From NCBI GenBank assembly GCA_004335835.1, contig RWJK01001982.1:1-64000 (forward strand): a stretch of DNA of 64,000 nucleotides, given 5' to 3'. The notes beneath the pieces were generated by a model. The model made no database searches. It saw nothing but the letters and a program-made list of their open reading frames with translations, and was not told where the DNA came from. Every line of letters starts with the position of its first letter. The stretch's first letter is position 1. Made by a program: the position numbers and the translations under genes. The stretch is from Scenedesmus sp. ARA3 (lineage: Eukaryota > Chlorophyta > Chlorophyceae > Sphaeropleales > Scenedesmaceae). This document shows positions 46,554 through 60,911 of the stretch, in pieces.

Positions 46554-46716
46554 ATACTTACCTGAACGGGGTGTGGGGGTGATCACGTAGGCCCCCCGCC
46601 CATTCGCGACTGCTCGCATTGCACTAAGCCTGCGGCGCGGATGGGAAGGCACTACGGTGTTTTCCACGTTTGAATATTTGGCAGGCTGAGGTACCTACTA
46701 GTTAGGCCTCGGCTCC
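46554..46716 (+). ncRNA. U1: U1 spliceosomal snRNA
   Basis: The RNA starts with AUACUUACCUG, the sequence that pairs with 5' splice sites. Stem-loop I has the U1-70K loop GAUCACGUAG (consensus GAUCAYGAAG, one change) closed by a G/C stem. Stem-loop II exposes AUUGCAC, the U1A site. Stem-loop III is a 9-bp stem with a UACG tetraloop (GGCAC-UACG-GUGUU). The Sm site is AAUAUUUGG. The last stem pairs GGCUGAGG (46684-46691) with CCUCGGCU (46707-46714). The length of about 163 nt matches U1. It recognises the 5' splice sites of genes such as those around it. The 3' end is placed just after the last stem. Confidence 0.93.
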
Positions 46717-59301: not shown

Positions 59302-59994
59302 CTAGCACCTCCACCACCTCTTATAAGCGGTACACCAAGCGGACAGCTTGCGAGCAGAGCGCGAATCAGCTGTGGTGATAGCCTGATTCAGCAGCTGGCG
59401 CTTACCCTCACCAACATCAGTCACACCCGTCGCAGGCGTAGACAGCAGTGCCTTTGTTGCGCCACCCGTCACACCCTCAGCACTGGGCAGGGTGAGCATG
59501 CGGCGACCCGAACACCAATACCACTTTCCTCTGTAGCTACACCAGTAGCCCAACAGCTTGCGAGCAGAGCCCGAGTCAGCTGGGGTGACAGCCGCATTCA
59601 GCAGCTGACGCTTGCCCTCACCAACAACAGCAGCACCCGTCACAGGCGTGGACAGCAGTGCTTTTGTTGCGCCAACCATCATACCATCAGCACCAACAGC
59701 CTCCAGAGGCACAGCAGACAGGCGGCGGCCGCGACACCAATACCAATGCCCGCCATGGCTACACCAATAGCCCAACAGCTTGCGAGAAGGACCCGAGTCA
59801 GCTGTGGTGGACGCCTCGATCAGCAGCTGGCGCGCGCCCTCACCACCAACATCAGCAGCAGCACCTGATGACAGGGGTAGGGCCAGCAGGCGGCGCAGCT
59901 CGGTTTTCTCAGCTGGCTCGGGCAGGCTGGCCACGCCGTGGATGAGCAGCAGGGCCAGCAGCGCCACGGCAAGTGTAGCAGCGGGGCGCGGCAT
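59302..59994 (-). CDS. Secreted multi-peptide precursor with three Cys-x8-Cys units and dibasic sites
   Basis: A single exon of 230 residues starts at ATG 59994 with a clear signal peptide (residues 1-23, TLAVALLALLLIHG). The rest is three tandem units of about 70 residues. Each unit has an acidic or neutral spacer (GEGKRQLL...ADSG), a dibasic site (Arg-Lys at 71-72, 145-146, 215-216) and a short Trp/Tyr/Cys-rich peptide: LLGYWCSHGGHWYWC, LLGYWCSYRGKWYWC and LSAWCTAYKRWWRC. The Cys pairs (78/87, 152/161, 221/230) keep exactly eight residues between them. The first two peptides end in Gly followed by Arg-Arg (89-91, 163-165), the usual signal for C-terminal amidation; the third ends at the last Cys and the stop. 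I know no family with this pattern. A prohormone-like or antimicrobial-peptide precursor is the best reading. Confidence 0.85.
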   Translation of the reverse strand: MPRPAATLAVALLALLLIHGVASLPEPAEKTELRRLLALPLSSGAAADVGGEGARQLLIEASTTADSGPSRKLLGYWCSHGGHWYWCRGRRLSAVPLEAVGADGMMVGATKALLSTPVTGAAVVGEGKRQLLNAAVTPADSGSARKLLGYWCSYRGKWYWCSGRRMLTLPSAEGVTGGATKALLSTPATGVTDVGEGKRQLLNQAITTADSRSARKLSAWCTAYKRWWRC

Positions 59995-60062
59995 GGTGGG
60001 AGTTGGTGGCTTGCAGGAAGAGGTCAGCTTGGTGTGGGTCTTCTGCAGATGGTAATGGAGGG

Positions 60063-60093
<31 letters not shown>

Positions 60094-60460: not shown

Positions 60461-60911
60461 TCACATGAGTTTGCAGAGGCGATAAATCAGGGTGGGTTGT
60501 ACAAGGCACTTGGCTGCTTTTGGGTCTCTGCAGAGGGTGGTGGAGGGGCAGGCGGCAGCGGCAGCGGCAGCAGCAGCAGCAGCAGAGGAGCTCATCCTGC
60601 GCAGATCAACGGCCAGCTTGGAGCATGAGCAAACGCTTTGCACATCTGATCTGATGTGATCTGATGCTATATGATCAGTAATGCGTATCAAGTCATCAGC
60701 TTGCAGCTAAATGCCTTCGATAGTCCAGACAGACAGAGTCACAATGCAACCCATTTGTCAAGCTGCAGCACTCCGACAACACTCACTTGAGTGTCACAGT
60801 GCTGATCAGATCAGCAGGCGTGACAGTGCAGCTGCTTAAAAGCGGAGCTAGCATCATCAACAGCGGCAGCGCTAGTAAAACACTGAGCAGAGACGCAAGT
60901 ATATGTACCAT
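60461..60911 (-). CDS. Candidate small secreted peptide (two exons)
   Basis: Exon 60911-60787 begins with ATG and encodes a strong signal peptide (MVHILASLLSVLLALPLLMM) ending at a GTGAGT donor. Exon 60527-60461 joins in phase and ends in TGA: 63 residues with three Cys (SSC, AKC, RLC). An alternative acceptor near 60602 keeps the frame and adds an Ala-rich stretch with another Cys. There is no homology to support it; the signal peptide and matching phases are the only evidence. Confidence 0.3.

Follow-up and report, generated by a model that had tools for sequence, protein, structure and literature searches.

Introduction

Few peptide signals are known from green algae. Chlamydomonas makes amidated peptides from a few precursors, one of the products being a gamete chemotactic modulator, and has an extended family of precursor-like genes that includes an 11-member cluster (PMC6919629). 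The amidating enzyme PAM is found in chlorophytes and, in the excerpt concerned, is given as missing from land plants (PMC6529398). The motif R-x-x-L / R-x-L-x is the site of the subtilases AtS1P/SBT6.1 and SBT3.5, and site-1-type sites, with a slash at the cut, include INRRIL/ATRRY in RALF23, AARRLR/SHKHHH in CLEL6 and TGRRLM/GSGASG in PROSCOOP12 (excerpt of a 2026 review, PMC13082318); a SKI-1-like subtilase group is reported throughout the Archaeplastida (PMC6713707). Plant TPST needs an Asp before the Tyr, and CLEL precursors need both SBT6.1 cleavage and an N-terminal Asp (PMC7162652). According to the excerpt of a 2026 study, TPST was present in chlorophytes before its known peptide substrates, and most chlorophyte TPST-like proteins are without the canonical sulfotransferase domain (PMC13074997).

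Here we analyse a gene of Scenedesmus sp. ARA3 in which a first-pass annotation had seen a prohormone-like precursor of the animal neuropeptide type. We propose, with moderate confidence and from sequence comparison, that it encodes a secreted multi-peptide precursor that would be cut at R-x-L-x sites, that peptides 1 and 2 would be amidated, and that the products would likely serve as cell-to-cell signals. Together with its relatives, which have other short peptides behind the same leader, it probably represents a new family of algal peptides that serve in signalling or defence.

Results

The window (the whole stretch that was analysed, 64,000 nucleotides of contig RWJK01001982.1 from an 87-Mb draft assembly) contains on its minus strand, at 59302..59994, a single-exon reading frame for a putative secreted three-unit peptide precursor of 230 residues, hereafter P0001, all of whose features given below lie on that strand. 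The start codon ATG is at 59994 and the stop codon TAG, at 59304-59302, directly follows a C-terminal Cys. The frame agrees with the Tetradesmus obliquus protein A0A383V665 (P0002), a separate gene model of equal length and 98% identity; none of the 4 substitutions between the two falls in the peptide cores, although so few changes give this no significance by itself. The first 23 residues, MPRPAATLAVALLALLLIHGVAS (59926..59994), are called as a signal peptide from the V-A-S before the proposed cut, hydropathy and conservation in the family: the 19-residue hydropathy maximum is 2.28, at residues 6-24, and the value after residue 23 is at most 1.28. By these measures P0001 is a protein with an N-terminal signal peptide and without a membrane anchor.

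Just upstream of the start codon lies an element made of (CTG)n plus CTGCCCCTCCA (60035-60093, minus strand), of which a second copy is found 0.5 kb upstream (60521-60585, minus strand; the copies agree at 79% over 66 columns). The repetition may stem from a duplication within the 5' UTR or from a 5'-UTR intron, and similar CTG runs also precede two paralogs, g1 and g2 (see below). The window further contains a U1 spliceosomal RNA gene at 46554-46713 on the plus strand (full-length Rfam match, 79.9 bits).

Behind the leader, P0001 repeats the same order three times: RQLL, some 12 residues, RKL(L/S) and a payload with a Cys-x8-Cys pair (Cys 78/87, 152/161 and 221/230). An R-x-L-x site precedes each payload and Gly-Arg-Arg follows two of them, the payloads and their ends reading GYWCSHGGHWYWC-RGRR, GYWCSYRGKWYWC-SGRR and AWCTAYKRWWRC-stop. 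Ahead of the units stands a further R-x-L-x site, RRLL (residues 34-37; 59884..59895), at a position where 6 of the 12 rows of family alignment A3 have ARRL. In unit 1, RQLL (residues 55-58; 59821..59832; from the motif count) is followed by the payload-proximal RKLL (residues 71-74; 59773..59784), predicted peptide 1, GYWCSHGGHWYWCR (residues 75-88; 59731..59772; Cys78-Cys87), and the amidation-type site Gly-Arg-Arg (residues 89-91; 59722..59730), the two flanking sites being identified by motif and by a survey of payload sites in the family. Unit 2 has RQLL (residues 129-132; 59599..59610), in which R129, L131 and L132 are invariant in a 17-row family alignment, A4; RKLL (residues 145-148; 59551..59562), in which R145 and L147 are likewise invariant; predicted peptide 2, GYWCSYRGKWYWCS (residues 149-162; 59509..59550; Cys152-Cys161); and a second Gly-Arg-Arg (residues 163-165; 59500..59508; motif and survey). 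Unit 3 consists of RQLL (residues 199-202; 59389..59400; motif count), RKLS (residues 215-218; 59341..59352; survey) and predicted peptide 3, AWCTAYKRWWRC (residues 219-230; 59305..59340; Cys221-Cys230), whose C-terminus is free at the stop codon, without a Gly. The signal peptide, the three Cys-x8-Cys peptides, the Arg-Lys before each payload (RKLL, RKLL and RKLS) and the Gly-Arg-Arg after two (RGRR and SGRR) had all been described in the first-pass annotation, and our reading of the sequence agrees with it in frame, coordinates and layout.

Among the 207 post-signal residues, every one of the 9 Trp and 6 Cys sits within the 39 residues of the cores (for random placement, P = 1.3e-7 for Trp and 3.2e-5 for Cys). 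R-x-L occurs 10 times in P0001, whereas 20,000 shuffles had a mean of 2.06 and never more than 9, and dibasic pairs occur 9 times against 3.4 in shuffles (P = 0.002); the units are duplicates and thus not independent, so that the shuffles overstate the significance. The cassettes are absent from the output of Tandem Repeats Finder and are therefore not recent near-identical copies. When unit 1 is compared with unit 2, synonymous sites have changed at 14.3 of 48.4 and non-synonymous sites at 17.7 of 131.6 (Fisher P = 0.017), with a synonymous excess also in the core alone (P = 0.024), both on small numbers. The pro segments show no constraint between units 2 and 3, with dN (0.136) equal to dS (0.129), and the core of unit 3 has a dN near 0.8 against those of units 1 and 2. 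The earlier view that the peptide cores and processing sites are conserved among units is thus borne out for units 1 and 2, but not for unit 3, which has only the W-C-x8-C skeleton and is without Gly-Arg-Arg.

Protein searches, each of which scored the roughly 8000 candidates sharing most words (statements on relatives outside Tetradesmus/Scenedesmus are limited accordingly), returned at least 16 database relatives, P0002 and 15 further proteins (P0003-P0017). Two paralogs are encoded about 3 kb apart on the minus strand of contig C1258 of the same genome: g1 (C1258:57398-57024), with the payload DYDYDYRK, and g2 (C1258:54371-54102), with the C-terminal end GYWHHHKVWWWWHYKG. With P0001, the family in hand numbers 19 proteins. 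Its database members come from T. obliquus (P0002, P0003, P0011-P0013) and Scenedesmus sp. NREL 46B-D3 (P0015, P0016), the remaining nine being JGI proteins; among the matches listed, the family is known by name only from Scenedesmaceae. Weak matches in P0001's own genome on C1342 and C1363 were rejected as low-complexity, and others (C1236, C1552, C470, C86 and C1557:149607; E 0.88 to 2.8) were kept outside the count. The gene for GYWRRWVTPWRYHRG of T. obliquus P0003 and P0011 was not found in P0001's assembly, and no relative was found in viral and prokaryote collections with P0008 as the sole query.

As judged from these sequences, the members of the family have the leader and the order of modules in common and differ in the C-terminal payload. 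A leader of the type MARPAA..AVALLALLLIHGVASLP, with substitutions, is present in 17 of the 19 proteins; the gene models P0011 and P0012 are without it and P0005 is without its first residues. The payloads are of the kind GYW...G, or are DYDYDYRK / DYSYSYSYR, and in the single-payload relatives the C-terminal segment is only 8-16 residues long. Within the family, a payload with Cys-x8-Cys is found only in P0001 and P0002; in P0010 the payload contains two Cys that lie five residues apart, and a Cys-x8-Cys in the unrelated tail of P0011 was taken as a chance product of a faulty gene model. The earlier statement that no family with this core was known is right as regards the Cys-x8-Cys payload, which nevertheless belongs to a wider family.

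Several relatives have unusual gene models. P0003 (OEZ86_013766) looks like two neighbouring precursor genes fused, since it has a second leader inside the protein. P0011 (A0A383W8U9) looks faulty, its second payload being lost to an apparent other frame. P0017, a JGI protein, has the family leader and the first R-x-L site and then a quite different tail, Ala/Pro-rich, then Asp-rich, with the end KRRRMMKK, as though a different payload had been put behind the leader.

Three Pfam matches to P0001 were sub-threshold (the best, PF01639, at 16.9 bits for a cut-off of 25) and were rejected as chance, and P0008, P0016, g1 and g2 gave no match at E <= 1; no match over cut-off was thus found in the 5 of the 19 proteins that were scanned, and none is precomputed for the other database members. 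Open-licence literature contained, among the matches listed, no title on the family and no paper joining Tetradesmus obliquus with peptidylglycine; within that literature the family appears to be undescribed.

In 7 pairs of family members that were of our choosing and overlap (g1 was used three times and P0016 twice), the terminal site and payload are identical at 98 of 103 columns and the pro-region at 430 of 596. Taken singly, 3 of the 7 pairwise tests gave P < 0.01 and the other 4 gave P values of 0.16 to 0.79. The last 20 residues of g2 and P0013 show no differences, which is not significant (P = 0.12). These alignments suggest that conservation is no lower in the payloads than in the pro-region, and probably higher.

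A site pattern that includes the Arg gave 23 payload sites; 17 of the 19 proteins have at least one, and P0014 and P0017 have none. The residue at +1 after this Arg is Lys in 15 sites, Ala in 6, Ser in 1 and Val in 1; at +2 it is Leu in all 23, and the fourth residue is Ala, Thr, Leu, Ser or Arg. If the nearly identical P0002 is excluded, 20 sites are left, with Lys at +1 in 12 and Leu at +2 in 20; the invariance of R145 and L147 comes separately, from alignment A4. As the Leu is constant and 8 of the 23 sites are without a second basic residue, the conserved signal is R-x-L-x and not a dibasic pair. The proposal that Arg-Lys is the N-terminal cleavage signal is accordingly not supported, 8 of the 23 sites having Ala, Ser or Val for the Lys.

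A genome-wide search identified two neighbouring translated stretches on C162 that match the S1P structure 8uwc with E = 5.7e-46, the best other subtilisin being at 1e-11; we presume these to be site-1-protease exons (a PF23001 piece is below cut-off, at 22.3 of 27 bits), and a site-1 protease thus appears to be encoded in the genome. No candidate was found for the proprotein-convertase P-domain (PF01483) in a six-frame exon search, which can miss such domains and recovered the control in 1 of 14 genomes. N-terminal processing of P0001 therefore fits plant site-1 cleavage better than animal dibasic cleavage, as far as motif and gene content indicate. It is unlikely, in our estimate, that a furin/PC-type enzyme alone cuts after both Arg-Lys and Gly-Arg-Arg, which would yield amides beginning LLGYWC. 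This would suit the RK before all three payloads of P0001 and the GRR after two, and Chlamydomonas is reported to have furin/PC-like subtilases (PMC6313938, section 3.2); it would leave the 8 non-dibasic family sites and the invariant Leu unexplained, and the P-domain has no match in the six-frame search. This alternative concerns the cut and fits several functions of the peptides, and its probability overlaps with those of the other readings.

Site-1 cleavage alone is not sufficient at the C-terminal side, since a cut after GRRL-S or GRRM-L leaves extra residues, and a second, basic-specific cut would be needed. No enzyme for this second cut was identified in the genome, the search for P-domain convertases having given no match. 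The M14 carboxypeptidase family (PF00246) has matches to predicted genes on four contigs (best 1.3e-35).

Amidation-type ends recur in the family. Gly-Arg-Arg/Lys comes directly after six internal GYW units, of which P0001 and P0002 have two each and P0003 and P0011 one each, and the terminal GYW units of P0003, P0013 and g2 have Gly as the last residue before the stop; unit 3 of P0001 has neither. Internal Gly plus basic residues and terminal Gly-stop are what a glycine-extended peptide needs, if the units are indeed processed. By itself the motif is weak evidence, since G-[KR][KR] is common in Chlamydomonas secreted proteins (331 of 771, with 49 of 771 ending in Gly; PMC6313938, section 3.1).

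Contig C926 encodes what looks like a bifunctional PAM (PHM + PAL): PHM-N (PF01082), PHM-C (PF03712) and NHL/PAL pieces follow each other in order on one strand; of the six pieces, one PF01082 and two NHL pieces are below cut-off. The PHM piece that contains HTH matches PHM structures weakly (E 0.0086, against 0.9 for dopamine hydroxylase), and an NHL piece matches the PAL structure 3fvz with 4.4e-19, ranking below five designed propellers. The translation also contains HH, QVHY and EMC, which we take to be further copper-ligand motifs as in rat PHM. PHM-N (PF01082) and NHL pieces also lie on the same strand at C758:12815-15772, which may point to another PAM-type enzyme in this alga. Other PF03712 matches (C591, C1206, C1258 and C1482) form no part of the PAM claim, and that on C1482 presumably belongs, from its look by eye, to a dopamine-hydroxylase-type enzyme. 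The apparent PAM gene on C926 and the Gly-basic and Gly-stop ends of the relatives strengthen the earlier suggestion that an amidated secreted peptide is plausible here, and two of the three peptides, 1 and 2, are probably amidated.

The payloads of P0001 start with GYW or AWC, without Asp-Tyr, and 10 of the 23 family sites are directly followed by DY, namely those of nine single-payload relatives and of the first payload of P0003. The DY payloads of these sister genes are candidate substrates of chlorophyte TPST. Sulfotransfer_2 has three matches in the genome; that on C1250 scores 23.6 bits for a Pfam cut-off of 22 and has no PDB match, and the protein may resemble plant TPST. BURP cyclases are linked to the cross-linked Trp/Tyr peptides of plants; BURP (PF03181) has no match in this genome and likewise none in any control genome, so that the miss carries no weight against such a cyclase.

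An AlphaFold model made with the 17-row family alignment has a mean pLDDT of 38 and no single domain. With low confidence it places strand pairs at 76-87 (strands 76-80 and 83-87) and 150-162 (strands 150-154 and 157-162), and a helix, not a hairpin, at unit 3. The case that the repeats form one folded domain, which the first-pass annotation had raised against its own proposal, gains no support from this model, itself weak. We also think it distinctly unlikely that P0001 acts as an intact protein, with the Cys-x8-Cys segments as three small linker repeats that bind metal or carbohydrate and R-x-L as a habit of composition. Proteolysis is indeed deduced here from sequence, and copper binding is conceivable for the payload of g2, which is rich in His, Trp and Tyr (HHH...WWWWH); yet such a protein would hardly be expected to have five times the R-x-L of shuffled sequences, Leu at +2 in every payload site, neither a Pfam domain nor a confident fold, and relatives in which only an 8-16-residue segment follows the last site.

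Discussion

We propose that a site-1-like subtilase of the secretory pathway cuts P0001 after its R-x-L-x sites (RKLL/GYWC and RKLS/AWC), and that a disulfide staples each peptide into a small loop or hairpin, between Cys4 and Cys13 in peptides 1 and 2 and between Cys3 and Cys12 in peptide 3. The Gly-Arg-Arg sites would be cut and their basic residues trimmed, exposing a Gly on peptides 1 and 2 that PAM would convert to an amide; peptide 3 would retain a free acid. Once released, the peptides would have their effect in the extracellular space, where signalling between cells is their most likely role.

Signalling seems likelier than an antimicrobial or wall function, which we judge by sequence criteria. 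Conserved leaders with variable payloads are known from amphibian skin peptides, and the same arrangement here would suit a precursor of Trp-rich, cationic, disulfide-stapled and amidated peptides directed against bacteria or grazers. The five GYW/AWC payloads for which we computed properties have a net charge of +1 to +4, and 31-47% of the residues are aromatic in all eight payloads computed. We nevertheless consider an antimicrobial role fairly unlikely, since the three DY payloads in this set carry no net charge or are acidic, and since conservation is no lower in the payloads than in the pro-regions, the reverse of an arms race; the same two observations favour signalling.

The aromatic content and the secretion signal would also suit Tyr/Trp/Cys-rich peptides that are not ligands and become cross-linked oxidatively, by dityrosine or isodityrosine, in the wall or matrix. 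The YxY motifs of extensins are cross-linked in this way, and DYDYDY and YSYSYSY are repeated YxY motifs. A structural role of this kind is likewise distinctly unlikely in our view: the payloads have just 8-16 residues and stand behind R-x-L sites, and neither these sites nor the Gly ends would have a role in it. We retain a signalling precursor as the preferred reading. Being compact, with one type of leader, a constant cleavage motif and payloads that can be exchanged, the family would provide testable ligands in another algal lineage.

Among known systems, the Chlamydomonas GATI-amide precursor Cre03.g204500 is likewise a green-algal secreted precursor with a Gly amidation site in an alga that has PAM (PMC6919629). 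The GATI precursor, in contrast, is a 94-kDa protein, P0001 having 230 residues, and the R-x-L-x sites, Cys-x8-Cys and DY payloads of P0001's family are absent from the excerpted description of it (PMC6919629). The 16 database members of the family, among the matches listed in the protein searches, include no protein named from Chlamydomonas and none from a land plant.

The layout is also like that of animal multi-copy amidated neuropeptide precursors, with a repeated payload whose internal copies are followed by Gly-Arg-Arg/Lys, PAM in the genome and, in some relatives of P0001, a last copy ending in Gly-stop. The neuropeptide-type layout proposed at first is thus kept in so far as the product would be secreted, multi-peptide and amidation-ended, but not in its animal-type Arg-Lys site: the N-terminal site is R-x-L-x and not dibasic, and the six-frame search found no P-domain convertase. 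No homology of the family to animal neuropeptide precursors was found.

With RALF, RGF/GLV/CLEL and PROSCOOP, the family shares a short payload behind R-x-L-x / RRxL, a site cut in those precursors by S1P/SBT6.1 or SBT3.5 (PMC13082318), and the DY at the payload start in P0001's sister genes is like that of sulfated plant peptides (PMC7162652). The 16 database members from the protein searches and the Pfam scan of 5 family proteins showed no sequence homology to RALF/CLEL/PROSCOOP, PSK, PSY or CIF. Unlike RALF/CLEL/PROSCOOP, P0001 has three payloads and Gly-Arg-Arg amidation-type ends, and land plants are described as being without PAM in the excerpt of PMC6529398. It is conceivable, if rather improbable, that the family is the chlorophyte counterpart of the S1P-processed, sulfated plant hormones, and that the Tetradesmus branch that includes P0001 switched to Trp-rich, amidation-type payloads. 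DYDYDYRK and DYSYSYSYR would then be natural substrates of chlorophyte tyrosylprotein sulfotransferase, and plant-type cleavage and animal-type amidation would meet in one precursor, with a disulfide in P0001. The family also offers candidate substrates for the gap left by a TPST that predates its known peptide substrates (as set out in the excerpt of PMC13074997), and would join plant-type site-1 protease cleavage with peptide amidation, which is absent in land plants.
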